The notes beneath the pieces are model-generated. The model was not told where the DNA came from, did no database searches, and saw only the letters and a program-made list of their open reading frames with translations. Shown in pieces: positions 5,148-31,520 of a DNA stretch of 39,822 nucleotides. Every line of letters begins with the position of its first letter. The stretch's first letter is position 1. The stretch covers positions 1 through 39,822 of the forward strand of contig JAFVVI010000019.1 of assembly GCA_017502265.1 (NCBI GenBank), read 5' to 3'. The position numbers were made by a program, and so were the translations under genes. This stretch comes from Oscillospiraceae bacterium (lineage in GTDB: Bacteria > Bacillota > Clostridia > Oscillospirales > Oscillospiraceae).

Positions 5148-6512
5148 ATGAAACTAAAAACGACCCTGTTGGGAAAAACCTACACATTCAAGGATGTGAA
5201 AGATGTCCTTGCCAAGGCCAACGAGGAAAAGACCGGCGATAAGCTGGCCGGCCTTGCGGCCGAGACCGCCCAGGAGCGGGTGGCGGCCAAGGTGGTCCTG
5301 TCGGAATTGACGCTGAACGACCTGCGGGAAAATCCTGCCGTCCCATACGAGCAGGACGAAGTCACCCGCATCATTCAGGACGATGTGAACACCCCTGCCT
5401 ATGAAAAAATCCGGAATTGGACGGTGGCGGAATTCCGGGAATGGCTTTTGAACGAGAACACCACCGCCGATGACATCCGCAAGGCCAGCCGCGGCCTGAC
5501 CAGCGAGATGGTGGCGGCGGTGTGTAAGCTGATGAGCAATCTGGACCTGATCTATGCTGCGGCCAAGATTCCCGTCACCGCCCACTGCAACACCACCATC
5601 GGCTTGCCCGGCACATTGTCCTGCCGGCTGCAGCCCAACCACACCACCGACGACCCCGACGGAATCACCGCCTCCACCTTAGAGGGCCTTACCTTAGGCG
5701 CAGGCGATGCGGTCATCGGCCTGAATCCCGTCACCGATTCTCCCGAGCAGGTGGGCAAGGTGCTGCGGCGATTCCAGGAAATTAAGGAGCATTGGCAGAT
5801 TCCTACCCAAATTTGCGTTTTGGCCCATGTTACCGCCCAGATGAAGGCGGTGCGGGCCGGCGCGCCCTGTGACCTGATCTTCCAGTCCATCGCAGGCAGT
5901 GAGGCGGGCAACGCCGCCTTTGGCTTTAATGCCCAGACCCTCCAGGACGCAAGGGATTTGCTGCTCACCGACGGCACAGCCGAGGGCCCCAATGTGATGT
6001 ACTTTGAGACCGGCCAGGGGTCGGAGCTAAGCTCCAATGCCCACCACGGCACCGACCAGGTGACCATGGAGGCCCGGTGCTACGGCTTTGCCAAGCGATT
6101 CCAGCCTTTTTTGGTCAACACCGTGGTTGGCTTCATCGGCCCGGAGTATCTGTATGATGCCCGGCAGGTGACAAGAGCCGGCCTGGAGGACCATTTTATG
6201 GGCAAGCTCACGGGCATTTCTATGGGCTGCGACTGCTGCTATACCAACCATATGAAAGCGGACCAGAACGCCATTGAAAACTTAGCCACCCTTCTGACCG
6301 TAGCCGGGTGCAACTACTTCATGGGCATTCCCCACGGCGACGATATTATGCTGAACTATCAGACCACCGGCTTCCGGGAGACAGCCACCCTCCGGGAGCT
6401 GACGGGCAAGACCGCCATTCCGGAATTTGACCGGTGGCTGCACAAAATGGGCTTTCTGGAAAACGGCAAGTTGACGAAAAAGGCCGGCGACGGCTCTTGC
6501 CTGTTGTTTTGA
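5148..6512 (+). CDS. eutB: Ethanolamine ammonia-lyase large subunit EutB
   Basis: EutB is the catalytic, barrel-shaped subunit of adenosylcobalamin-dependent ethanolamine ammonia-lyase, which splits ethanolamine into acetaldehyde and ammonia inside the microcompartment. From ATG at 5148 the protein is 454 residues, the usual family length. It begins MKLKTTLLGKTYTFKDVK, a characteristic EutB N-terminus. ATG at 5148 is preferred over in-frame ATG 5139 because AAAGGA lies 9 bases before it. The interior matches EutB throughout, for example GCDCCYTNHMKADQN near residues 364-378. A repeat of about 115 bases separates it from eutC, although the two subunits form one enzyme. Confidence 0.97.
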   Translation: MKLKTTLLGKTYTFKDVKDVLAKANEEKTGDKLAGLAAETAQERVAAKVVLSELTLNDLRENPAVPYEQDEVTRIIQDDVNTPAYEKIRNWTVAEFREWLLNENTTADDIRKASRGLTSEMVAAVCKLMSNLDLIYAAAKIPVTAHCNTTIGLPGTLSCRLQPNHTTDDPDGITASTLEGLTLGAGDAVIGLNPVTDSPEQVGKVLRRFQEIKEHWQIPTQICVLAHVTAQMKAVRAGAPCDLIFQSIAGSEAGNAAFGFNAQTLQDARDLLLTDGTAEGPNVMYFETGQGSELSSNAHHGTDQVTMEARCYGFAKRFQPFLVNTVVGFIGPEYLYDARQVTRAGLEDHFMGKLTGISMGCDCCYTNHMKADQNAIENLATLLTVAGCNYFMGIPHGDDIMLNYQTTGFRETATLRELTGKTAIPEFDRWLHKMGFLENGKLTKKAGDGSCLLF

Positions 6513-6670: not shown

Positions 6671-7570
6671 ATGAACAAACAGGAACTAACCAATCTGGTA
6701 TCGGAGATTTTAAGCCAGATGAACGGCACTCAGCCCCAGGTGAAGGCCAGCGAGTATAAAACCGTGGTCTATAACGAAGACCGGCCGGACCCGGCAGGCG
6801 CAGTGGACGATGTGTCCAAGATCGACCTGCGAAAGCTGTATCTGGTGGAAGATCCGGCGGACGAAAAGGCCTTCCGCCGCTTAAAAGAACGCACCCCCGC
6901 CCGTCTGGGCAGCGGCCGGGCAGGCCCCCGGTACAAGACCTTAACCATGCTTCGCTTCCGGGCAGACCACGCGGCGGCCCAGGATGCGGTGTTTTCGGAG
7001 CTGCCGGAGGATTTTGGCCAGCAAAACGGCCTTGTTTCCGTGAAAACGGAGTGTAAGGACAAGGACGAATACCTCACCCGCCCCGATAAGGGCCGGCGGT
7101 TTGACAGCGAAAATGCCGCCAAGATCAAATCTGCCATTACCGGTACACCCCGGGTGCAGCTGGTGATTGGTGACGGCCTGTCCTCGGCGGCCATCGCAGC
7201 CAACGCTATGGACTGCGCCGCTGCCATCCGTGACGGTTTGAAGGTCCGGGGCATCGAACTGGGCCAGGGCATTTTCGTCAAATATTGCCGTGTTGGCGCC
7301 GGCGATGCCGTTGGTGACATCACCGGCTGCGAGCTGGTGTGCGTGCTGGTGGGCGAGCGGCCCGGTCTGGTGACAGACAAGAGTATGTCCGCCTATATCA
7401 CCTATAAGCCCCACACCGGGGTGTCGGAATCCGCCCGTACGGTGGTCAGTAATATCCACGCCCAGGGCACACCGGCGGTGGAGGCCGGCGCCTATGTTGC
7501 CGAGCTGATCGACACCATTTTGAAGCGAAAAGTTTCCGGCGTGGGCCTGCATACGGAGGAAGCCCAATGA
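6671..7570 (+). CDS. eutC: Ethanolamine ammonia-lyase small subunit EutC
   Basis: EutC is the small subunit of ethanolamine ammonia-lyase and helps bind adenosylcobalamin. The 299-residue protein has family motifs such as RTPARLGSGRAGPRYKT (about 73-89), IGDGLSSAAIAANA (about 169-182) and LVGERPGL (about 226-233). Residues 1-18 form an amphipathic helix (MNKQELTNLVSEILSQMN) followed by a loose linker, the layout of encapsulation peptides that direct enzymes into microcompartments. ATG at 6671 is preceded by AAGGGAAGGAG. It overlaps eutL by 4 bases (ATGA). Confidence 0.96.
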   Translation: MNKQELTNLVSEILSQMNGTQPQVKASEYKTVVYNEDRPDPAGAVDDVSKIDLRKLYLVEDPADEKAFRRLKERTPARLGSGRAGPRYKTLTMLRFRADHAAAQDAVFSELPEDFGQQNGLVSVKTECKDKDEYLTRPDKGRRFDSENAAKIKSAITGTPRVQLVIGDGLSSAAIAANAMDCAAAIRDGLKVRGIELGQGIFVKYCRVGAGDAVGDITGCELVCVLVGERPGLVTDKSMSAYITYKPHTGVSESARTVVSNIHAQGTPAVEAGAYVAELIDTILKRKVSGVGLHTEEAQ

Positions 7571-12137: not shown

Positions 12138-13203
12138 AATATTGATCGGTATTATGGGTATATTTGCCGCCTTAGGCGCTCTTGACCGGATCTTCGGCAA
12201 CCGCTTGGGGCTGGGCCACCCCTTTGAAGAGGGTATTTTGGCCATGGGCACATTGGCCCTTGCCATGCTGGGTATTATCAGTCTTGCGCCGGTGCTGGCA
12301 AACATCTTAAACCCTGTGGTTGTGCCGGTGTATCGGTTTTTAGGCGCTGACCCGGCAATGTTTGCAGGCACGATCTTAGCCTGTGATATGGGCGGCGGCG
12401 CCCTGGCCCAGCAAATGTCCGCAGACCCCGATGCGGCGCTTTTGGGCGGTGTGCTCTGCGGCAGTATGCTGGGCGCTACCATCGTCTTTACCATCCCGGT
12501 GGCTCTGGGCATTTTGCAGGAGCAGGACCGGCCGGCTATGGCCAAGGGTATTCTGGCCGGCATTGTCACCGTGCCGGTGGGCGTACTGGCCGGCGGCCTG
12601 GTGGCAGGCTTTCCTCTTTTGATGGTCCTGCGGAATCTGATCCCCATTGTCCTCATCGGCGGTCTGATCGCCGTGGGACTTGTGTTTGCGGAAAGGGCTA
12701 TGATCAAGGGTTTTGGTATCTTCGGCAAGGGCGTCATCGCCCTGATTACCCTTGGTTTGGGCGCGGCGATTTTGGAGGAACTGACCGGCTTTACGGTGAT
12801 CCCCGGCTTAGCGCCCCTGCGCGAGGGTTTTGAGACCGTGGGCGCCATCGCCATCGTGCTGGCAGGCGCGTTTCCCTTGGTGCATATCGTCACCAAGCTT
12901 CTTCGCCGCCCTTTGATGGCGTTGGGTAAGGGCTTGGGCATCAACGAAGCCGCCGCCGGCGGTCTGATCGCCACCCTTGCCAATTCCATCGCCACCTTTG
13001 AGCGGGTGAAGGATATGGACGGCCGGGGCAAGGTGGTGAACATCGCCTTTGCGGTGAGCGCGGCCTTTGTGTTCGGCGACCATATGGGTTTCACCGCCGG
13101 TTTTGCGCCGGAAATGCTCCCGGCGATGATCGTGGGCAAGCTGGCCGGCGGCGTGACTGCCATCGCCGTGGCTCTGCTATTGACCCGGAAAAAGGATAAT
13201 TGA
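12124..13203 (+). CDS. eutH: Ethanolamine transporter EutH
   Basis: EutH is the membrane protein that brings ethanolamine into the cell, important when it is scarce or protonated at low pH. The 359-residue protein has about ten hydrophobic segments and conserved EutH stretches such as LACDMGGGALAQQMS (about 86-100) and NIAFAVSAAFVFGDHMGF (near 305-322). The start overlaps eutN by 14 bases with GGAGG just upstream. It is the last eut gene; the next promoter overlaps its stop codon. No eutV/eutW regulators, eutP, eutQ, eutS, eutJ or eutK are found in the window. Confidence 0.95.
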   Translation: MSAPEILIGIMGIFAALGALDRIFGNRLGLGHPFEEGILAMGTLALAMLGIISLAPVLANILNPVVVPVYRFLGADPAMFAGTILACDMGGGALAQQMSADPDAALLGGVLCGSMLGATIVFTIPVALGILQEQDRPAMAKGILAGIVTVPVGVLAGGLVAGFPLLMVLRNLIPIVLIGGLIAVGLVFAERAMIKGFGIFGKGVIALITLGLGAAILEELTGFTVIPGLAPLREGFETVGAIAIVLAGAFPLVHIVTKLLRRPLMALGKGLGINEAAAGGLIATLANSIATFERVKDMDGRGKVVNIAFAVSAAFVFGDHMGFTAGFAPEMLPAMIVGKLAGGVTAIAVALLLTRKKDN

Positions 13204-23280: not shown

Positions 23281-24159
23281 ATGCAGTGGTATGACGAATG
23301 GCAAGAGCAACACAAGCTGAAGTATCGTAAAAAACACGCCGCCTTTTATGCGGCACCGTCCATCGAGTATATTGCGCCATTCAAAATGGCCGATGATCTT
23401 TACTATGTGGGCGACCGGTTGGTATGCGTCCACTTAATCCGCACCGACGAAGGCCTGATCCTTTTGGACGCAGGTTATCCTTGTACAAGGCATCTTTTGA
23501 TGGCCAGTATTATTCGCTTGGGCTTTGATCCGGCTGATGTGCGCTGGATCATACTGACCCACGCCCACTTCGACCATTTCGGCGCAGCCAATGAGTTCCG
23601 GAATTTGTACGGTACAAAGGTAGCCCTCAGCGCTGTGGACACAGCCTCTATGCAGGAGAAGCCCTTCCGCGCGATTGGTGCCGCTCCCACCGAGAATCCC
23701 CCTGTCATCGACCGTACATTGGAAGATGGCGAGATATTCTCGTTCGGAGGCAAGGAAATCCGCTGCGTCCTGACCCCCGGTCACACCCTGGGTACTATGA
23801 GCTTTTTCTTCAATGTGACGGATCAGGGCAAAACCTATTTGGCCGGCCAGTTTGGCGGCGCTGGTGTAAATGCCTTGAAGCTTCCCTATATGCTGTACTA
23901 TCAGCTCCCCCTGGATATGGCTCAGCGAATGGTGGCATCTTTGGACCGCATCAAAGATGAACCTGTGGCGGTGCATTTGGGAAATCATCCTTATAATAGC
24001 CATACGCTTGAGAAGCGGGAACGCCAGCTGAAAGAAGGCGGTAATCCCTTTGTTGACACATCCACCTGGCCGGAATTTGTGGCAGATATCCGGAGAAAGA
24101 GCCTGAAGATCATCGCGGAAAACGAAGAATTGGCCCGGCAGCATCAAATTGACCTGTAA
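23281..24159 (+). CDS. MBL-fold metallohydrolase resembling subclass B3 beta-lactamases
   Basis: A 292-residue metallo-beta-lactamase-fold protein. The zinc site is HAHFDH at 94-99, His168 in TPGHTLGTMSFF and His236 in GNHPYNS, the arrangement seen in subclass B3 enzymes. There is no signal peptide, whereas true B3 lactamases are exported, so it is probably a cytoplasmic hydrolase of another substrate such as a lactone or thioester. It is a one-gene unit with its own promoter and terminator. Antibiotic resistance should not be assumed from this sequence. Confidence 0.87.
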   Translation: MQWYDEWQEQHKLKYRKKHAAFYAAPSIEYIAPFKMADDLYYVGDRLVCVHLIRTDEGLILLDAGYPCTRHLLMASIIRLGFDPADVRWIILTHAHFDHFGAANEFRNLYGTKVALSAVDTASMQEKPFRAIGAAPTENPPVIDRTLEDGEIFSFGGKEIRCVLTPGHTLGTMSFFFNVTDQGKTYLAGQFGGAGVNALKLPYMLYYQLPLDMAQRMVASLDRIKDEPVAVHLGNHPYNSHTLEKRERQLKEGGNPFVDTSTWPEFVADIRRKSLKIIAENEELARQHQIDL

Positions 24160-24166
24160 TACTTAC

Positions 24167-24197
24167 AAAAGCCTCCCTGATTCAAAGGGAGGCTTTT
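24167..24197 (+). terminator. Terminator after the MBL-fold hydrolase
   Basis: AAAAGCCTCCCT (24167-24178), 7-base loop, AGGGAGGCTTTT (24186-24197). It lies between the hydrolase and the spoIVB-like fragment. The GGGAGGCTTTT end is also found just before the second spoIVB fragment at 27952. Confidence 0.9.
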
Positions 24198-24200
24198 GCT

Positions 24201-24294
24201 TTAGGTAGCAGCGTCCAGCGTGTTTTCAATGAAAATGCCGTATCCCGTGGTGGGGTCATTGACCAGCATATAGGCGTAAGGATGATATCCGCAC
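24201..24294 (-). pseudogene. spoIVB 3'-end fragment (outermost copy)
   Basis: On the minus strand this reads into a stop codon at 24201-24203 after [15 protein letters not shown] and TLDAAT. That is almost the same as the C-terminus of the full SpoIVB at 29187 ([21 protein letters not shown]). Over the last 23 codons I count 12 base differences, most of them silent. Further upstream (GYHPYAYM) the similarity is lost, and the fragment stops at the cotH terminator hairpin. There is no start codon or catalytic region, so it is a remnant and not a gene. Confidence 0.75.
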
Positions 24295-24297
24295 AAA

Positions 24298-24330
24298 GAA
24301 ACGGAAGCTGTAATGCACAGCTTCCGTTTC
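24298..24330 (-). terminator. Terminator for the DUF4956-VTC-cotH operon
   Basis: GAAACGGAAGCTGT (24298-24311), loop AATGC, ACAGCTTCCGTTTC (24317-24330), a perfect 14-bp stem. On the minus strand it is followed by TTTGTG, a modest T run. It is 40 bases after the cotH stop. Confidence 0.75.
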
Positions 24331-24370
24331 GCTAATTTTAACAACAAATAACAAAGCTATTACTTGAAAC

Positions 24371-25888
24371 TTAATTATAATATTTATCTACAAAGGCAAG
24401 ACGAGCACAAACAAACGCTTTTAACGCACTTACGGTATCATCCCCACCATAACGATTTGACCATACAGAAATATCCCTTGCAATCGCACCGCTTGTGCTG
24501 AGTTTCCCATATAATTCATCAATATGGGCGAGGATATTTTCTTCGGTAAGTATTGTTTGGCGCAAATTGTTCCAGCGTTCAATCGCTTTTTGCTGATACT
24601 CGGGATAGGTTTTCTGCAAAGCAGGCGTTTCCATTCTGACGCCAAATTCCCCAAGGGACATTTGATAGTCATAACAAAAAGCATATTCTGCTTTCCATAC
24701 TACACCAAAGCTCTGATCTGTATCCCATGGAACCAAAAAATGCGCATAACCATCATCTGTTTTTTTGAGAACGTGGTACATGTTCTTTAAGGAAAAATTA
24801 TCCCGCGCGCTGGCCAGCTGTAGCATTAAATTTACATCAATTACATTGTATAAATTATAGCTGCTGGGTTCTTTTCCCTCAAAGACCCTCTGCATGATAG
24901 TATATATTTCTTCCGCATTCACTTTAGGCGTTACGAATTCATATGCTTCTTCCGCAGATGTTGCCTGATAATGTGTCACCTTTAAAAGCACATCTTCGTC
25001 CGACAGTTCCAGATATTTCGCGTCCAATCTGCGCTGCAGCAGGAATACTCCCATATATTTCCCGTTGATGACCGCTTCCACATATTCACCGGATGACATT
25101 TTATAATTATAATCTGTTCCTGCTGCAATTATGTTCCATAGATCCATAAACAGCTTTTCTTTTATTCGCGTATCATCCATCGTGAGACTGTTCAGAATCC
25201 AGTCATCATCTCTGCCTAAGCCCACTAACTCCACATTTTTATTCTCTCCACGTTCGTTCTTAAACGAAAGTTTCCAAGGATTCTTAGGCTCTGCGGCAGC
25301 ACTGTTTCCACGGACATGCCACTGTAAATCACTGGATATTGTGGAGTATGCCTCTGTAGAAGGATCAAAGCCCGACCAGATGGTAGCAAATCCGGAATAT
25401 ACAGCCCTACGCTCTTCGTCTTGATGTGTTACTGCGCCATCTATATTGATAACAGGAAGTGTGGTGATAACCACATTCACTAACTGACAGAGATCCTCTT
25501 CTACAATAACGAGAGATAGCGGTGTGCCGCTTTCAACTGCTGAGGAAATATCATTCAACGCAGTATTTTTTAGAAAAAACAACGTATAGGCAGGATTTGT
25601 GGATTTCAATTCTCCCTGCAATGAGGAATAATGAGACAATTTATCCGACGCCTGGGAAATATATATGGTATTGTTAGCTATATCGGCCGCAATTTTTTCC
25701 CCATTAAAGCGCAATTGCGAAATATCCAGAGTTGAGACTTTTGTATATTCGTAAATGTTGCTTTCAAGAATCAACGGAACATCCATACAATACTGTCGTT
25801 CAAGAAAAAGAAAAGCCCCGATAGCAAAGACCAACGCAAGAAGAGCGCACAAGAAAACTATGACTTTGTGATTTCTTCTGTCTAACAT
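24371..25888 (-). CDS. cotH: CotH-family kinase-like protein, membrane-anchored
   Basis: A 505-residue protein with one N-terminal membrane segment (about residues 9-29) and a large outside domain of the CotH family. In Bacillus, CotH is an atypical protein kinase acting on spore coat proteins. Visible family motifs: WHVRGNSA at 190-197, WKLSF at 205-209, LGRDDDWILNS at 224-234, YMGVFLLQ at 278-285, ARDNFSLKNMY at 361-371 and the metal-binding VPWDTDQSFG at 387-396. All expected kinase-like residues seem present. It is the last gene of a DUF4956-VTC-CotH operon, 18 bases after the VTC gene. Base composition is clearly lower in GC than in the eut region. Its target is unknown. Confidence 0.87.
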   Translation of the reverse strand: MLDRRNHKVIVFLCALLALVFAIGAFLFLERQYCMDVPLILESNIYEYTKVSTLDISQLRFNGEKIAADIANNTIYISQASDKLSHYSSLQGELKSTNPAYTLFFLKNTALNDISSAVESGTPLSLVIVEEDLCQLVNVVITTLPVINIDGAVTHQDEERRAVYSGFATIWSGFDPSTEAYSTISSDLQWHVRGNSAAAEPKNPWKLSFKNERGENKNVELVGLGRDDDWILNSLTMDDTRIKEKLFMDLWNIIAAGTDYNYKMSSGEYVEAVINGKYMGVFLLQRRLDAKYLELSDEDVLLKVTHYQATSAEEAYEFVTPKVNAEEIYTIMQRVFEGKEPSSYNLYNVIDVNLMLQLASARDNFSLKNMYHVLKKTDDGYAHFLVPWDTDQSFGVVWKAEYAFCYDYQMSLGEFGVRMETPALQKTYPEYQQKAIERWNNLRQTILTEENILAHIDELYGKLSTSGAIARDISVWSNRYGGDDTVSALKAFVCARLAFVDKYYN

Positions 25889-25906
25889 CTATTTGTCTCC
25901 TACGGT

Positions 25907-26614
25907 TTATAATGTAATAGGGAATTCTCCATTTACAGCCAGCCTTCCCAGATAATACTTTGAAAAAGCCGTTTGCTGCAGTTTTCCGATTTCTAATTGC
26001 TTAGCAATTACATCCGGAAGATACTCGTCGTATTTGACTTCCAGTATGTGCATTCCAACGGGCAATAGCGGAACCATTCCTTCTATACGGTCATCCAGAA
26101 AAGATGTGCACTTCCTACTTGCCATAATGTTGCGGTCAAAGGTAATGCGTACATTTCCGATAGGATGTACGAATGCGGTCCGTTCGTATGCAATGATAAC
26201 TTTAGGCTGCATTTCAGCGCAGCGCATTTGTAAAAGCAGCTGGTTTAAAGGTTTCTTGTCCCCAAATTCCAAATCATTTCCACCATCGATAATGCGGTCG
26301 TATTCACTGCGGGTAAGACGGCACGCTGTCTTCTTGGTCAAGCCGTTTTGTTTTGCCTTGATTTCCAAGTTGATGGGGGCGTTTCCCGATCCATAAGTAC
26401 GAATGCGGTACTTTTGGCGGCAATCAACGCCCGCATCATTCTCGTCCATACAGCGATCCCAAGCATCATCAAAATAGATGCTTCGAATTTCGTAACAGTC
26501 GCCTACCTGATGAATGTCCTGCTGCATAACTATGGACAGACGCTCAGCAATGACAGCAAGATCCAAATCAGAAACAAGATATTTATTCTCTACTCGGAAT
26601 TCGATATCGCTCAC
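25907..26614 (-). CDS. VTC-domain protein (polyphosphate polymerase-type tunnel enzyme)
   Basis: This 235-residue protein is a triphosphate-tunnel enzyme of the VTC family; yeast Vtc4 uses the same fold to make polyphosphate from ATP. The tunnel residues all appear in order: Lys11 (ENKYLVS), Arg70 and Arg72 (KYRIRTYG), Lys86 (LEIKAKQ), Arg145 (AYERTAF), Arg156 (VRITFDR), Glu192 and Lys194 (LEVKYDE) and Lys219 (SKYYLG). It is cytoplasmic, with no SPX domain or membrane segment. The start is GTG at 26614 with a weak ribosome binding site, 9 bases after the DUF4956 stop. Bacterial VTC proteins commonly sit beside DUF4956 and CotH genes; the product made is not established. Confidence 0.88.
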   Translation of the reverse strand: MSDIEFRVENKYLVSDLDLAVIAERLSIVMQQDIHQVGDCYEIRSIYFDDAWDRCMDENDAGVDCRQKYRIRTYGSGNAPINLEIKAKQNGLTKKTACRLTRSEYDRIIDGGNDLEFGDKKPLNQLLLQMRCAEMQPKVIIAYERTAFVHPIGNVRITFDRNIMASRKCTSFLDDRIEGMVPLLPVGMHILEVKYDEYLPDVIAKQLEIGKLQQTAFSKYYLGRLAVNGEFPITL

Positions 26615-26623
26615 CCCGTATCT

Positions 26624-27298
26624 TTAGAAACGAACGTCACCGTCGTGGGTCATAAGGTGCACAGAAGAAACTTTCTCCAGAGCAGCGATCTTCTGTACGA
26701 GGGAATCCTCATTGCAAATACGCATTTCCAAAATCCATTCCACACCGCGTTTGCTTACATTCCGACTACGGATAGCAACCGAACGGGAATGTTTCTTTGC
26801 AATAGCAATCAATTCCGACTCTATGGCAATATCCTCGCCGGATACTACCAGCAGGCAGGGAGCCCGGAAAGTGGGGAGTAAGTCCAGAGCAAACAGCAGC
26901 GCAGTAATGGCCAAGCTTAATAGAACGGCCAACTCAAACAAACCGGAGCCGACGACAATACCGATGCTGATGCTCCAGAACAAATATGTAAGGTCGATGG
27001 GGTTTTTAACCGCATTTCTGAAGCGGACAATGGACAGCGCACCTACCATACCTAAACTGATTGTAATATTGCTACCCATCGCCAACATAATGGCGGCCGT
27101 TACAACTGGCAATGCAGCCAAAGATTTGTTAAAGTCCCGGTTGTAAAAGCCACTTTTTGTACTTATGCGGTACACAAAGTAAATAAACACGCCTAATAAT
27201 ATTGCCATACCCAGAGTGACAGCGATGGATGTCGTAGTCAGGTCGCTTGCTTGAAACTTTTCAAGTACGGACTTTTTTATAACATCTGTAAAATTCAT
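26624..27298 (-). CDS. DUF4956 membrane protein
   Basis: A 224-residue protein with about four membrane segments in the first 140 residues and a soluble C-terminal domain of about 80 residues. The family signature is GALSIVRFRNAVKNPID (about 86-102) followed by LTYLFW. The C-terminal part has an alternating beta/alpha pattern ending SVHLMTHDGDVRF. ATG at 27298 is preceded by GAGGAG. It is the first gene of the operon with the VTC and CotH proteins and probably anchors or partners the VTC enzyme at the membrane; that role is inference. Confidence 0.85.
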   Translation of the reverse strand: MNFTDVIKKSVLEKFQASDLTTTSIAVTLGMAILLGVFIYFVYRISTKSGFYNRDFNKSLAALPVVTAAIMLAMGSNITISLGMVGALSIVRFRNAVKNPIDLTYLFWSISIGIVVGSGLFELAVLLSLAITALLFALDLLPTFRAPCLLVVSGEDIAIESELIAIAKKHSRSVAIRSRNVSKRGVEWILEMRICNEDSLVQKIAALEKVSSVHLMTHDGDVRF

Positions 27299-27349
27299 TT
27301 CTATTTCTCCTCTCTATAATGAAACACCGCTATTTTATTCCCCTAAAAT

Positions 27350-27378
27350 AAAAAGTGCGGCTACCGAAGTAACCGCAC
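27350..27378 (-). terminator. Attenuator-like hairpin in the DUF4956 operon leader
   Basis: On the minus strand GTGCGGTTAC (27378-27369), loop TTCG, GTAGCCGCAC (27364-27355), then TTTTTATTTT. The stem and T run form a good intrinsic terminator placed about 50 bases before the DUF4956 ATG. It could stop transcripts from the 61-aa gene upstream, or act as an attenuator for the operon. Confidence 0.75.
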
Positions 27379-27590
27379 AAAAAATGCAAACTCCGATAGT
27401 CACCAAACTAACGCAATGTGAAATAGGGCGCAAAAGCAAACACAAACAAAGAAGGAATTTGTTTTTTATCAAATTCACCATGTTGTATATGTTGAAATTG
27501 GCGCATTTATTCGAAAAAAGAAAAATACGCCCGATTTCACATGTATCAAGTCACTTTAGCATATTGTGTGCAGAATTGCAAGAGTAAAAA
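27379..27590 (-). other. AT-rich gap with nested inverted repeats upstream of the DUF4956 operon
   Basis: No gene is seen here. Arms TGTGAAATAGGGCG (27417-27430) and CGCCCGATTTCACA (27528-27541) match as an inverted repeat with one mismatch. Inside them, GAATTTG (27455-27461) and CAAATTC (27470-27476) form a small hairpin. This may be the structured 5' leader of the DUF4956 operon or a decayed small insertion element. I could not identify a convincing promoter. Confidence 0.5.
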
Positions 27591-27617
27591 CGGGCGGATG
27601 TGGGCATCCGCCCCTAC
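27591..27617. repeat. Family C short palindromic repeat, single unit
   Basis: A GC-rich palindrome, GGGCGGATG-TGGG-CATCCGCCC then CTAC, in an AT-rich setting. It lies 2 bases after the stop codon of the 61-aa gene. An inverted pair of the same family is at 29118. Confidence 0.75.
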
Positions 27618-27618
27618 A

Positions 27619-27804
27619 TTATTGCATTGTGTCGTTGGCGAGGTTGGCGACCAGGGTGTACATTTCCCGCTCGGAGCGGACATTGTGGGCCTTGGTGATG
27701 ATGGCCTTCTTTTGAGAATCGGTCATATGGGCGTAGCGGTTCATAGCGGCGGTGTTAGAGGACAACGCCAACCCGAATCCGATGGGAATGTTGTAGAAAT
27801 CCAT
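27619..27804 (-). CDS. Small conserved protein of unknown function, 61 aa
   Basis: A short acidic/basic soluble protein beginning MDFYNIPIGFGLALSSNTAA, with a helical part TDSQKKAIITKAHNVRSERE. Similar small proteins starting MDF-IP-GFG, with a helix ending in SEREM, are, to my recollection, common in gut Clostridia, but no function is known to me. The ribosome binding site AAAGGAGG is perfect and 7 bases before the ATG, which supports real translation. A family B repeat lies directly upstream and a family C repeat directly downstream. Confidence 0.75.
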   Translation of the reverse strand: MDFYNIPIGFGLALSSNTAAMNRYAHMTDSQKKAIITKAHNVRSEREMYTLVANLANDTMQ

Positions 27805-27825
27805 AGTGTTTCCTCCTTTCCAAGG

Positions 27826-27951
27826 ACCCCTTGTGTAAAGGGGGCTGGCAAAAATCTTTGATTTTTGACTGGGGGATTGTTGCGTATCGATGCCTTACAA
27901 TCCCTCCGTCTGCCCTTCAGGCAGCCACCTCCCTTTACACAAGGGAGGCTT
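27826..27951. repeat. Family B palindromic repeat, copy 2
   Basis: A 126-base copy with inverted hairpin ends (CCCCTTGTGTAAAGGGG at left, CCTCCCTTTACACAAGGG at right), the core CAAAAATC-TTT-GATTTTTG (27849-27867) and the hairpin CTGCCCTTCAGGCAG. It ends exactly at the stop codon of the spoIVB fragment at 27952. Confidence 0.85.
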
Positions 27952-28079
27952 TTATGCCGCTGCATCTAACATATTTTCAATAAAAATGCCGTAGCCGGTA
28001 GTTGGGTCGTTGACCAGCACATGGGTCACCGCGCCTACCAGTTTTCCGTCCTGTATAATCGGCGAGCCGGACACGCTGA
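27952..28079 (-). pseudogene. spoIVB 3'-end fragment (middle copy)
   Basis: On the minus strand this encodes the last 40 codons of a SpoIVB protein. It starts at [16 protein letters not shown], runs through [15 protein letters not shown] and ends MLDAAA with a stop at 27952-27954. The catalytic serine motif SGSP is present. Compared with the full gene at 29187 I count about 20 base differences in 123, but only 2 amino-acid changes in 40 (Met to Val and Ile to Val). It is cut off on its 5' side at 28079 by a small element with inverted repeats. It is therefore a remnant of a diverged but once functional spoIVB 3' end. Confidence 0.85.
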
Positions 28080-28187
28080 TGTCAAGTAGGGGACAAAAGA
28101 ATTTTGTGTTTTTCTGCGGTTTTTATGCGTATTTCGGGGTAAAAGGCAGGTCTTTACATACCTCAACCGTTGTCCTTAACTTGACAT
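28079..28187. mobile_element. Small inverted-repeat element (MITE-like) interrupting the spoIVB fragment
   Basis: A 109-base stretch with ends ATGTCAAGTAGGGGACAA (28079-28096) and TTGTCCTTAACTTGACAT (28170-28187). These are inverted repeats matching at 15 of 18 positions. It has no coding capacity, and no clear target duplication is visible. It begins exactly where spoIVB similarity ends, so it may have inserted there or marked a recombination point. Confidence 0.6.
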
Positions 28188-28195
28188 AGATGAAA

Positions 28196-28237
28196 TGTCG
28201 AAAAAGGAGACTTTTAATTTTCCTTGCCTTTTCGACA
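28196..28237. repeat. Inverted repeat TGTCGAAAA / TTTTCGACA
   Basis: Perfect 9-base arms at 28196-28204 and 28229-28237 with an AT-rich centre. It may be a hairpin or the remnant of another small element. The gap between 28079 and 28331 holds this repeat, the MITE-like element, the terminator at 28284 and no gene. Confidence 0.55.
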
Positions 28238-28283
28238 AATTCTGATTTCGGGGGATGCGCAAGTATCTACCTATCCAAGAACA

Positions 28284-28315
28284 AAAATGGAAGCCATTTT
28301 GATGGCTTCCATTTT
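28284..28315 (-). terminator. Terminator for the TPR protein gene
   Basis: AAAATGGAAGCCA (28284-28296), loop TTTTGA, TGGCTTCCATTTT (28303-28315). It lies 16 bases past the TPR stop codon on the minus strand, with T-rich sequence at its exit. Confidence 0.88.
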
Positions 28316-28331
28316 ATCGCCCAATGATCTC

Positions 28332-29060
28332 CTATTTAGGGAAAGCGGGATGTGTACCGCTTAAAATCTGTCCGGTCATTTGTTGGGTTTGAGCTACCCA
28401 AGCCGGGAATTTTTCTTTTAAGCTATTGATATGTTCGGCAGTTTTTTCTGCATTTCCCATAGCTGCATATAAAATAGCTGCTGTGGCATCTGCGCCGGGT
28501 TGGGCGGGATATTGCTGCGCTGTGTTCCAAGCCTTTTCTGCTTCTGCGTATCGATGGAGCATAGTCAGACAGGATGTTAAATTTGTATAAGCAGAGCCAA
28601 GTATAATTTCGTCCTTATCATTTTCAGACATTTCTAACAAGCAGTCGATAGCGGTTTGATAATAACCCTTTGCTTTTTCAAATTGTGCCGCTGTATGCGC
28701 AGCCTTGGCCAGCTTCAGATAGGGAAGATAAAACCGGTGGCCGAGTTCGCCTGCTTTCTCATACCATTCAAGCATTTGTTCCCGTGCGCCGCCCATTTCG
28801 AAACACAGACCTACAAAAAATGCCCAAGCAGCTTTATCTTCGTCATATATGCAGTGAGGATGGATCTCCTTTAGGATTTCCATACCCCGTTTTACTTCCC
28901 GTCTGCTGATATGGTTCAGGGCATTGATTAGCAAAATACGCACTTGCTGATTTTCAACAAATGCTGGCTCCAGTATGGGGCCAAAAGCCTGTCTATGGAT
29001 TTCCCAACTCTGCCGTAATGCAAATTCTGCGCTTTCAAAATCAATCGGTTGATTGCTCAT
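28332..29060 (-). CDS. TPR-like helical repeat protein, 242 aa
   Basis: A soluble, all-helical protein with tetratricopeptide-like units, such as GGAREQMLEWYEKAGELGH, AQFEKAKGYYQTAIDCL and HRYAEAEKAWNTAQQYP, whose Ala/Gly/Tyr spacing is typical of TPRs. Such proteins bind partner proteins; no enzymatic function is suggested. ATG at 29060 is chosen because AAAGGAGG lies upstream; the frame is open for 23 more codons with no ribosome binding site. Base composition is lower in GC than in spoIVB next to it. It is enclosed between the full spoIVB and the middle spoIVB fragment, which suggests that it arrived by insertion. Confidence 0.8.
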   Translation of the reverse strand: MSNQPIDFESAEFALRQSWEIHRQAFGPILEPAFVENQQVRILLINALNHISRREVKRGMEILKEIHPHCIYDEDKAAWAFFVGLCFEMGGAREQMLEWYEKAGELGHRFYLPYLKLAKAAHTAAQFEKAKGYYQTAIDCLLEMSENDKDEIILGSAYTNLTSCLTMLHRYAEAEKAWNTAQQYPAQPGADATAAILYAAMGNAEKTAEHINSLKEKFPAWVAQTQQMTGQILSGTHPAFPK

Positions 29061-29117
29061 TATTCCCGCCTCCTTTTTGTTTATCCTATCACAGGGCAAT
29101 GAAAATTGCAACAAAAA

Positions 29118-29186
29118 GCGGGCGAACACAGTTCGCCCCTACGGTGTGTATCGTTTCCGTTCGTAGGGGCGATCTGCGATCGCCCG
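29118..29186. repeat. Family C palindromic repeat, inverted pair
   Basis: Two units facing each other: GGGCGAAC-ACAG-TTCGCCC followed by CTAC at left, and GTAG then GGGCGAT-CTGCG-ATCGCCC at right. About 20 bases lie between them. The pair ends exactly at the spoIVB stop codon. Confidence 0.8.
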
Positions 29187-30152
29187 TTATGCCGCGGCGT
29201 CGAGCATATTTTCAATAAAAATGCCATATCCCGTGGTGGGGTCATTCACCAACACATGGGTGACGGCGCCGATGAGCTTGCCGTCCTGTATAATCGGCGA
29301 GCCGGACATGCCCTGTACGATGCCGCCGGTGGCTTCCAGCAGCGCCGGGTCTGTGATCCGCAGCAGGATGTTCCGGCCGGTGGCGCCTGCGGTGGGATAA
29401 ACCTTCAAAATCTCCACAGAATATTCCTGTACGGTGTCGCCCTGCACCGTGGAGCGAATGGTGGCCGGCCCTGTACGGACATCCTTTGCCGCAGCCAAGG
29501 GAATGGCTGTGCCGGACCAGCCTTTGTCAGTGGTGCCGAAAATGCCCCGGGTGGTATTTTTGTATAATGCGCCGATGGGCTCGGCGTCTTGTAATGCCCC
29601 CATGAGCTGACCGGGATTGCCGCAAGCGCCCTTGCGCACGGACACCACGCAGGCGCGATAGGCGTTGCCGGATACCATATTCAAAAGCTCACCCCGGGGA
29701 TTGTTGACTCCGTGACCCAGCGTGCCGAATTTGCCTGTGTCCGGGTCATACCAGGTGACCGTGCCGATGCCGGTGACCCCTTGTTTGAGATAAACCCCCA
29801 GCTTTGGGCCGTCGGTGGTGACAGCGGGGGTAAAGCGCAGGGTGTCGGATTTCTTATTCCGCTGGACCGTCAGCTCTACCACGCCCTCGGACCGCTCCAA
29901 GGCGTAACGCACATCGGCGGCGGTATGCACGGTTTTGCCGTTGACGGATAGGATCCGGTCGCCCACCTTCAAACCGGCTTGCTGGGCATCGGCTCCCAAT
30001 TCTTCGTCAAAAGCCGCAACGGTGACGGTATTATCCCCCAATTCCAGGCCGATGACCTGCCCCCCGGGGATCAGGCTCTGGGCGTTGGCAGCCACACACA
30101 TCAGCCATACACATATTATAAATGATCCTGTGCGATTCAAAAATTTTTTCAT
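29187..30152 (-). CDS. spoIVB: SpoIVB sporulation serine peptidase (family S55)
   Basis: SpoIVB is secreted from the forespore into the intermembrane space, where it signals for sigma-K activation by cutting SpoIVFA. The 321-residue protein has an N-terminal membrane/signal segment (about 9-24), a PDZ domain around VGDRILSVNGKTVHTAADV (63-81) and the S55 domain. His147 (LGHGV) and Ser283 (GMSGSP), with Asp268, match the known catalytic positions and spacing. It is about 100 residues shorter than the Bacillus protein, mostly at the N-terminus. ATG at 30152 has AAAGGAGGG upstream. Two extra copies of its 3' end lie downstream, at 27952 and 24201. I could not identify a sigma-F or sigma-G promoter. 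Confidence 0.94.
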   Translation of the reverse strand: MKKFLNRTGSFIICVWLMCVAANAQSLIPGGQVIGLELGDNTVTVAAFDEELGADAQQAGLKVGDRILSVNGKTVHTAADVRYALERSEGVVELTVQRNKKSDTLRFTPAVTTDGPKLGVYLKQGVTGIGTVTWYDPDTGKFGTLGHGVNNPRGELLNMVSGNAYRACVVSVRKGACGNPGQLMGALQDAEPIGALYKNTTRGIFGTTDKGWSGTAIPLAAAKDVRTGPATIRSTVQGDTVQEYSVEILKVYPTAGATGRNILLRITDPALLEATGGIVQGMSGSPIIQDGKLIGAVTHVLVNDPTTGYGIFIENMLDAAA

Positions 30153-30259
30153 AATCAGGCCCTCCTTTCGTCTGCTCTGTTAATATTCCTCGAACGCAAA
30201 ATAGTAACCGATGCAAAAGTCGAAAAAACTGGGAGAAATTTCTTATCGAAATGCGATCT

Positions 30260-30328
30260 ACCTATTGACACCATAGGTAAATGATGGTATATTACCCATA
30301 CAACAAGTAGGTAAATACCCGGAGGTAT
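30260..30328 (+). promoter_or_regulatory. Isc operon promoter with Rrf2-type dyads
   Basis: TTGACA (30265-30270), 17-base spacer, TATATT (30288-30293). A perfect dyad ACCTAT-N7-ATAGGT (30260-30278) overlaps the -35. Further half-sites are TTACC (30292-30296), TAGGTA (30308-30313) and a dyad ATACC-CGGA-GGTAT (30315-30328) over the ribosome binding site. The Rrf2/IscR-type protein encoded as the third gene of the operon is the obvious candidate to bind them. Confidence 0.75.
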
Positions 30329-30332
30329 CAAA

Positions 30333-31520
30333 ATGCAAGTTTACGCAGATAATGCTGCTACTACAAAAATCAGCGCGCACGCCCTGCAGGCGATGATGCC
30401 CTGTTTTGAAAAATTTTACGGAAACCCCTCTTCCTTGCACACCGTAGGTCAGGAGGCCAAGGAGGTTTTGGACGATGCCCGCGCCCGGATTGCCAAGTGC
30501 TTAGGCTGTGAAGCCAGAGAGATCTACTTCACTTCCGGCGGCAGCGAGGCGGACAACCAGGCTATTCGGTCCGCTGCCTTCTATGGCGCAAGAAAGGGTA
30601 AAAAGCATATTATTTCCACCGCCTTTGAGCATCACGCCGTGCTGCACACCTTGAATGCGCTGGAAAAAGAGGGCTTTGAAATCACCCTTCTGGATGTGAA
30701 AGAGGGCCACAACATTACCGCCCGGCAGGTCAAAGACGCCATCCGCGAGGACACCTGCCTGGTGACAACTATGTACGCCAACAATGAGATCGGCTCTGTG
30801 CTGCCCATCGCCCAGATCGGCGCGGTTTGCAAGGAAGCCGGCGTGCCCTTCCACACGGACGCGGTGCAGGTGGCCGGCCACCTCCACATTGATGTAAAAG
30901 CGCAGAACATTGATATGCTCAGCCTGTCCGGCCATAAGTTCCACGGCCCCAAGGGCGTGGGCGCGCTGTATGTCCGCCGGGGACTGCCCCTGGTGAACAT
31001 CATCGAGGGCGGCGCCCAGGAGCGTGGCAAGCGGGGCGGTACGGAAAACCTGCCCGGCATCGTGGGTATGGCCGCTGCGCTGGAAGATGCCTGCGCCAAT
31101 ATGGACAAGAACAACGCCAAGGTCATCGCCCTGCGGGACAAGCTTATCGCCGGCCTTTCCAAAATTCCCCACTGCGCCTTGAACGGCGACCCTGTCAACC
31201 GCCTGCCGGGCAATGTGAGCTTCTGCTTTGAGGGCATCGAGGGCGAAAGCCTGTTGCTGATGCTGGATGCTCAGGGAATCTGCGCGTCTTCCGGCTCAGC
31301 CTGCACCTCCGGCAGTCTTGACCCCAGCCATGTGCTGCTGGCCATCGGCCGGGTCCACGATGTGGCCCACGGCTCTCTGCGGTTGTCCGTATGTCACGAA
31401 AATACGGAAGAAGAAATCGACCATATCCTCACCGCCGTTCCCCAGGTTGTGGAGCTGCTGCGGAATATGAGCCCTGTGTGGCGTGACCTGCAAAACGGCA
31501 AGAGAGAATATATTCTGTAA
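30333..31520 (+). CDS. iscS: Cysteine desulfurase (IscS/NifS type)
   Basis: This PLP enzyme takes sulfur from cysteine and passes it to IscU for iron-sulfur cluster assembly. The 395-residue protein has the PLP lysine at 202 in SLSGHKFHG, His100-His101 in AFEHHAV, and the mobile sulfur-carrying Cys324 in ASSGSACTSGS. ATG at 30333 has GGAGG upstream inside a likely operator. It is the first gene of an iscS-iscU-iscR-rpe unit. In gut Clostridia this two-gene IscS-IscU set is usually the main cluster-building system; I infer that here. Confidence 0.96.
   Translation: MQVYADNAATTKISAHALQAMMPCFEKFYGNPSSLHTVGQEAKEVLDDARARIAKCLGCEAREIYFTSGGSEADNQAIRSAAFYGARKGKKHIISTAFEHHAVLHTLNALEKEGFEITLLDVKEGHNITARQVKDAIREDTCLVTTMYANNEIGSVLPIAQIGAVCKEAGVPFHTDAVQVAGHLHIDVKAQNIDMLSLSGHKFHGPKGVGALYVRRGLPLVNIIEGGAQERGKRGGTENLPGIVGMAAALEDACANMDKNNAKVIALRDKLIAGLSKIPHCALNGDPVNRLPGNVSFCFEGIEGESLLLMLDAQGICASSGSACTSGSLDPSHVLLAIGRVHDVAHGSLRLSVCHENTEEEIDHILTAVPQVVELLRNMSPVWRDLQNGKREYIL

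Follow-up and report, generated by a model that had tools for sequence, protein, structure and literature searches.

Staphylococcal cassette chromosome (SCC) elements carry Ccr serine recombinases, insert at the 3' end of rlmH and build composite tandem islands, and the skin element interrupts the sporulation gene sigK. The ssrA islands of Dehalococcoides stand in tandem behind one gene, each with a copy of the gene's 3' end, and carry serine recombinases; 15 of 31 are without an integration module, which was explained by accretion (PMC3146451). Accretion is also described for integrative and conjugative elements (ICEs) and cis-mobilizable elements (CIMEs), such as ICESt1, where elements that have lost their integration genes but keep their attachment (att) ends stack at a gene end (PMC5704250). 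Streptococcal ICEs carry three tandem serine integrases at one end, which fall into clades by position, and disrupt mutT, traG or hsdM (PMC4701971). Serine-integrase triplets, accretion and the stacking of islands behind a single gene are already known; no report of spoIVB as an integration target was found in the literature searched. The window analysed here, a stretch of 39,822 nt from an Oscillospiraceae bacterium (assembly GCA_017502265.1, contig JAFVVI010000019.1), holds an intact spoIVB gene, which encodes the SpoIVB peptidase, and two displaced copies of its 3' end. It is probable that serine-recombinase elements have in the 3' end of spoIVB a hotspot for site-specific integration and that the window keeps the remains of two events; the hotspot itself and its targeting by large serine recombinases (LSRs) are very probable from the sequences compared.

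The comparison with the described systems shows both shared and distinct features. As in the Dehalococcoides islands, tandem 3'-end copies occur together with serine recombinases and with many inserts without an integration module. The Dehalococcoides target is a tmRNA with a 20 bp repeat, whereas spoIVB is a protein gene that offers a 40-codon coding end, and unlike those islands, spoIVB shows two adjacent target sites (sites I and II), LSR triplets and split genes. Autonomous elements at site I resemble the streptococcal triplet ICEs in their positional clades and in the disruption of the target gene, but differ in the target and in the trail of gene-restoring inserts. ICEs and CIMEs are described with integrases generally, mostly tyrosine ones; the inserts at spoIVB differ in having a gene end, and not an element end, as their left border. 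The window insert at 28072-29306 is CIME-like in having no integration or transfer genes; its right end is present, but its left border is the spoIVB end and not an element end. Serine recombinases, the 3' end of a conserved gene and composite tandem islands are shared with SCC elements, and the target gene differs. Ccr models gave 50-90 bits against NCBIfam cut-offs of 700-900 for the three LSRs scanned (two from site II and that of genome G128), which do not class as Ccr recombinases. The likeness to skin lies in an element inside a sporulation gene; the gene differs, and programmed excision is only an analogy here.

Two insertion sites in the 3' end of spoIVB

The three spoIVB ends of the window lie in register on the minus strand with stops at 29187, 27952 and 24201, as the original prediction, made from the letters alone, had proposed. 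Its hand counts were reproduced: the middle copy differs from the full gene at 20 of 123 nt and 2 of 40 residues (M281V, which is the junction codon itself, and I293V), and G+C is 25 of 60 at 24421-24480 and 34 of 60 at 12961-13020. The inserts between the copies are indeed AT-richer, with 44.2% G+C (28077-29186) and 43.0% (24275-27951) versus 56.7% outside 24201-30152. With 16 third-position and 3 other differences in 117 nt, the middle copy comes from a diverged functional gene and not from a recent duplication, again as proposed. The distal copy differs from the gene at 14 of 75 nt over residues 298-321. Both fragments match the SpoIVB of their own genome (E 6.6e-19 and 5.3e-6). Among 99 genomes searched, 21 have a 3' end of spoIVB standing apart from the gene (G011 and G042 excluded as possible contig breaks). 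The window is contig C19 of an assembly of 1.41 Mb in 55 contigs that is 82% complete.

Alignment of the 3' ends of relatives places the borders of such fragments at two sites. In site I fragments the first letters of spoIVB are the TG of codon Met281; the serines of GMSGSP, which we take to be the motif with the catalytic serine, come immediately after. Ahead of the fragments stands a conserved end foreign to the gene, typically TTGTCC-N-TTGACA-N-CGTG, and the crossover codon is GTG in 131 of the 134 unique fragments, ATG in two and CTG in one; 100 of the 134 stay in frame to the stop. Site II fragments start at about codon 298-300, behind an end like GGGTATCATCAATACAC, and the matching left junctions read CATGTG-TGTGTG...GATGATACC. 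Aligned with these, the window's middle copy falls in with the right junctions of site I and its distal copy, in degenerate form, with those of site II. The single repeatedly used target of the original prediction holds for the spoIVB 3' end as such and gives way to two target sites with distantly related recombinases. Codons 282-290 have no special third-position conservation, so the coding end is not claimed as a constrained recombinase site. The allele ATTATACAGGACGG, found in 11 of 134 fragments, 3 of 56 occupied genes and none of 29 single-copy genes, is suggestive at most.

A strict site I pattern, consisting of the element end and spoIVB codons 282-290, has an estimated chance expectation of about 0.06 in the collection and was found in at least 117 genome-contig stretches and in 3 viral contigs. 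Titles among the matches listed name Oscillospiraceae, Lachnospiraceae, Clostridia, Bacillota, Butyricicoccus, Frisingicoccus, Robinsoniella and Ruminiclostridium, and isolates are represented by Fusibacillus kribbianus YH-rum2234 and Faecalicatena contorta ET55. Counted by genome, 23 of 136 from the genus and 7 of 393 across the class have the junction (the window's genome being in both sets), and the reversed pattern had no match in the same sets. A looser right-end pattern occurs in 20 of 149 relatives, with 2 matches for its reversed control. This recurrence and the recombinases found at such loci support the predicted hotspot. At two pattern loci out of 120 (L250 and L266) no match to spoIVB was obtained. 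Three plasmid records match the SpoIVB end (H8, H9 and H10); H8 (L354) was set aside, as it holds a whole spoIVB.

Several contigs of relatives stop at these borders: L053, L054, L168, L035 and L057 have a contig border in the core of site II, close to codon 300, while L055 and L348 terminate precisely at site I. Assemblies of relatives may be broken at both sites by insertions that they fail to resolve. In three genomes, displaced spoIVB ends are interrupted at the same place, close to codon 291, by a recurrent insert of about 110 nt (GGGGAGCGAT...GCAACAGG).

Serine recombinases and elements that split the gene

Recombinases are found at such loci in relatives: site I has a triplet of serine recombinases, and site II has another enzyme of this type. 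A scan of the 120 pattern loci with an LSR profile (L351 lay outside it) found two or three tandem LSR genes just ahead of the junction at seven of them: L261, L295, L317, L321, L339, L340 and L341. An eighth, L328, holds a cut LSR end, and a longer stretch (L353) shows a triplet there; a further triplet with a spoIVB end lies in MT836038 (L355), a human faecal record filed as phage. The L339 and L340 triplets are near-identical. Members 1, 2 and 3 form position-specific clades, to which the triplet of G362 (L192) also belongs, with no spoIVB end found in its short flank. The site II LSR, distantly related to those of site I, abuts the junction in G052 and G033, where the two proteins are 70% identical, and leaves a remnant in G124. 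At L191 (G051, contig C25), a site II LSR remnant and right end are followed by sequence without a detected spoIVB end, which may reflect another target or a later deletion.

A solitary LSR, sister to triplet member 2, is carried by the 10.7 kb insert of G128, which lies between intact spoIVB and a displaced end. This insert also encodes Schlafen-AlbA2, DUF2397 and DUF2398/DUF2399 proteins, with IS21-like ORFs recognised by eye. The three DUF proteins are presumably of Wadjet type. In the insert at L167 2187-9636, which has a solitary LSR, Schlafen-AlbA2 and the three DUF proteins, the set is apparently without an SMC-like subunit.

The triplet elements split their target. In G385, G387, G386, G383 and G096, spoIVB stops after Met281 and the conserved left end GTGAGTTATAATARGGACAA comes next; no intact spoIVB was found in these five draft assemblies. 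Both junctions lie on one contig in G385, 50.5 kb apart. The site I element carries its triplet at the right end, and its two ends form an imperfect inverted repeat, as in the attP site of LSRs. spoIVA was found in 9 of 9 genomes searched, including these five and G384. The left part of the G387 element starts in the manner of a type IV secretion system (T4SS), with TrbL_4, TraG P-loop and T4SS-DNA_transf above cut-off and TrbC below. The original claim that each arriving element supplies a new gene end thus stands for small inserts and for the single-recombinase insert, and fails for the triplet elements.

When the right and left ends are joined, TTGACA and TATAAT come to lie 17 (three elements) or 18 (two) nt apart in 5 of 5 site I elements; in the integrated element the two boxes are at opposite ends. 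The joined ends were sought by the presence of the boxes; among ends collected without that condition, the right end of G394 is without TTGACA. The joined ends come from different contigs in 4 of 5 genomes and amount to four independent cases at most, because those of G386 and G387 are nearly the same. Such box pairs with a spacer of 16-18 occur 53 times in 5.3 million strand-bases of the loci. These ends make it likely that excision assembles a promoter reading into the left-end genes. A promoter on the circle of Tn4451 was reportedly described by Lyras and Rood in 2000; the one here would likewise form from joined ends, but would read into the left-end genes and not into the recombinases. 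A phage DNA search with a guessed 36-nt query had no match, and the 92 viral-contig stretches fitting a loose palindrome pattern were left unused, as they were judged by eye to be mostly chance.

Gene-restoring inserts and their possible origin

Between the spoIVB end and the site I right end, 73 unique stretches of 243-10,688 bp (median 1363) were collected. Each of these small inserts has a gene end on its left and an element right end on its right, and lies between the intact spoIVB and the displaced ends. They stack in tandem, with up to 5 ends per locus, and the G128 insert is the one of the 73 with a serine-recombinase hit. The cargo scan covered 134 of 172 insert ORFs, picked by hand and mostly omitting short ones, together with four window genes behind the middle copy. 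These 138 proteins matched 93 Pfam families. Fic is the commonest, with 7 proteins, and the others include AraC-type regulators, Schlafen-AlbA2, ribonuclease and barstar. The cargo also has PADLOC matches, many of them to candidate models.

Between the intact and the first displaced end, 45 pairs show on average 18.9 differences at the 39 third positions and 8.8 at the 78 others, compared with 24.1 and 11.8 for ends of different loci. The preponderance of third-position differences indicates that the ends come from diverged functional genes, and since they differ almost as much as ends of different loci, the new ends seem to come from other lineages. The G+C at third positions of gene body and gene end correlates at 0.70 in 32 single-copy genes and 0.38 in 50 occupied ones, with 0.56 for displaced ends, in what is a small test. 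Third-position identity of body and end is 0.739/0.487 and 0.609/0.487 in two close pairs of occupied genes, and 0.887/0.872, 0.748/0.744 and 0.622/0.564 in three close pairs of single-copy genes. For the window spoIVB we infer a mosaic in which codons 1-281 are resident and codons 282-321 insert-borne.

Accretion followed by excision could produce such inserts, and we hold this step to be evenly poised. An element beside older donor DNA would leave together with that DNA, and the block entering a new host would set out, in order, the spoIVB 5' part, the element, the donor gene end, donor genes, the right end and the resident gene end. Should the LSR element later excise alone, spoIVB would be rejoined to the donor end, the donor genes would remain and the resident's own spoIVB end would be left downstream. 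The TPR-like insert of the window would have arrived thus at site I, while the DUF4956-VTC-CotH stretch would lie ahead of an older site II junction.

Several observations weigh against this account and against the hotspot behind it. The triplet is seen at a minority of loci only. The classification of site I fragments uses a TGACA-like motif, on which the occurrence of TTGACA in 92 of 134 fragments is conditional. G384 has a triplet plus an intact spoIVB, and in G387, G386, G383 and G096 the left and right junctions are on separate contigs, the assemblies being from metagenomes. The left part of G387 is the one place where conjugation genes were identified, on another contig than its triplet, and no transfer-like genes were seen by eye in the 50.5 kb insertion of G385, most of whose genes were unscanned. 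The joined attP was sought in viral contigs and not found. The samples behind the mosaic-gene tests, which point towards exchanged ends, are small. Finally, the window has no integrase, as the original prediction had noted, all hits of its genome to PF00239 and PF00589 being off contig C19, and no autonomous element was seen on that contig.

A different origin, which is possible though less likely than accretion, is that the inserts are gene cassettes: small circles with a composite site, made of a right end and a spoIVB end, that LSRs recombine into spoIVB in an integron-like manner without a large element. The small size and variety of the inserts and their tandem arrays fit this, as does the solitary LSR related to triplet member 2 in one insert. 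Cassettes would, however, require recombination of an attR-type with an attB-type site, which to our knowledge is not a standard LSR reaction, and no circle was seen. More speculative still is a complete serine-recombinase cassette system of gut Clostridia. Conjugative elements would insert at the codon ahead of the active-site serines of SpoIVB and so stop sporulation, small cassettes with a coding gene end would bring back a working enzyme together with new genes and push the former end aside, and excision with its left-end promoter would switch the host between a state of transfer without sporulation and a sporulating state.

Homologous recombination inside the conserved gene end, with sharp borders merely where similarity stops, would profit from ends that are similar DNA, often near 80% identical. 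It is very improbable, for unrelated loci share their border to the exact base, with conserved element ends in front of it, and the borders coincide with the insertion points of LSR elements instead of being scattered along the gene. Local duplication within the genome would explain direct repeats on one strand, but the mostly third-position differences and few residue changes are those between functional genes, and only 1 of 45 pairs (L334) is more than 95% identical; it can hardly be right. Decay of additional complete spoIVB genes could also leave such fragments, and some genomes (G034 and G043, for example) do have more than one full match; this has next to no probability, as site I fragments are without a 5' part and start at one codon behind an element end. 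The divergence pattern and the fixed borders led to the rejection of local duplication, decayed paralogues and scattered homologous recombination.

The window and its neighbourhood in relatives

The original prediction had named, as support, relatives with an intact spoIVB directly before the MBL gene; relatives with spoIVB and no extra end exist. The 61-aa gene of the window stands directly behind undisturbed spoIVB in 4 of 10 loci viewed (L060, L062, L066 and L068), at 17-18 nt in the last three; the other 6 gave no sign of it, and at further loci its distance from spoIVB is larger. G050 likewise has spoIVB and the 61-aa gene with no fragment. After an insert, in L322, L326 and L164, the displaced end is followed by the 61-aa gene at a script-measured 15-16 nt. 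By this gene order, the 61-aa gene may be an old neighbour of spoIVB rather than cargo. The expected combination of same neighbours and different cargo was found in G059, whose SpoIVB is 71-73% identical to that of the window and whose order is nifS, spoIVB, three ORFs, class A right end, displaced end, 61-aa gene and MBL gene. By eye, its cargo comprises Lrp-type regulator, peptidase-like and aminotransferase-like proteins, in the position that the TPR-like gene occupies in the window. Relative to G059, the window has 3.4 kb extra between the 61-aa and metallo-β-lactamase (MBL) genes, made up of DUF4956-VTC-CotH, the site II right end and the distal copy.

These comparisons support the window insert at 28072-29306 as one of the small kind, with a restored spoIVB, a TPR-like gene, an element end and the displaced old end. 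Its class A right end and fragment are 77-89% identical to those of L039, L040, L041, L046 and L163, loci unrelated to L035. A homologue of the TPR-like gene lies behind a site I fragment in G034 (89% aa, 80% nt identity), despite the two SpoIVB proteins of that genome being only 60-63% identical to the window's. Of the earlier gene labels, DUF4956, VTC and CotH were sustained; TPR is one match below cut-off, and the 61-aa gene is not obviously cargo.

In the window and at other loci, class A ends have a left-end-like inverted-repeat partner about 110 nt ahead, as in a mini-element resembling a miniature inverted-repeat transposable element, and a similar pair precedes the right end in L321 and L353. 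The DUF4956, VTC and CotH set recurs in an insert of another species, G048 (L044 2538-5814), in the gene order opposite to that at 24371-27298. No Rfam family matched within 23500-30500, and the window has one tRNA, at 56-129. Coordinates are collected in Table 1.

Table 1. Features of the spoIVB region of the window, and of an insert recurring in relatives
Feature	Position	Strand	Basis
nifS-like gene, upstream flank	30333..31520	+	adjoins spoIVB in many relatives
Intact spoIVB (SpoIVB peptidase S55)	29187..30152	-	Pfam PF05580
Site I crossover codon, ATG of Met281, shared core TG	29307..29309	-	aligned junctions, split genes
TPR-like protein, 242 aa from ATG, site I insert cargo	28332..29060	-	Pfam match below cut-off
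Class A right end of insert; core TTGTCCCCTACTTGACATCAGCGTG at 28072-28096	28072..28245	-	comparison with relatives
ATGTCAAGTTAAGGACAAC, inverted-repeat partner of right end, resembles element left end	28169..28187	-	read from sequence
Middle displaced spoIVB 3' end, codons 282-321, site I junction	27952..28071 (copy match 27952-28076)	-	alignment
61-aa gene, probable old spoIVB neighbour; no Pfam match	27619..27804	-	relatives' gene order
DUF4956 protein	26624..27298	-	above Pfam cut-off
VTC-domain protein	25907..26614	-	above Pfam cut-off
CotH-like kinase protein	24371..25888	-	above Pfam cut-off
Site II right end, degenerate GCGGATATCATCCTTACG	24275..24292	-	comparison with L038, L058, L059
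Distal displaced spoIVB 3' end, codons 298-321, site II junction	24201..24274	-	alignment
MBL-fold gene, flank	23281..24159	+	directly after 61-aa gene in G059
Recurrent insert of about 110 nt in relatives	L037 about 6894-7012; L048 about 5316-5427; L166, two copies		

At the spoIVB 3' end, inside a gene needed for sporulation, spore-forming gut bacteria have a point at which foreign genes enter again and again, and with it a testable conflict between transfer and sporulation. Its junction is a sequence tag for collecting cassettes and new pairs of serine integrase and attB. The findings at this locus also suggest that the catalytic end of a conserved protein has repeatedly been exchanged between species.

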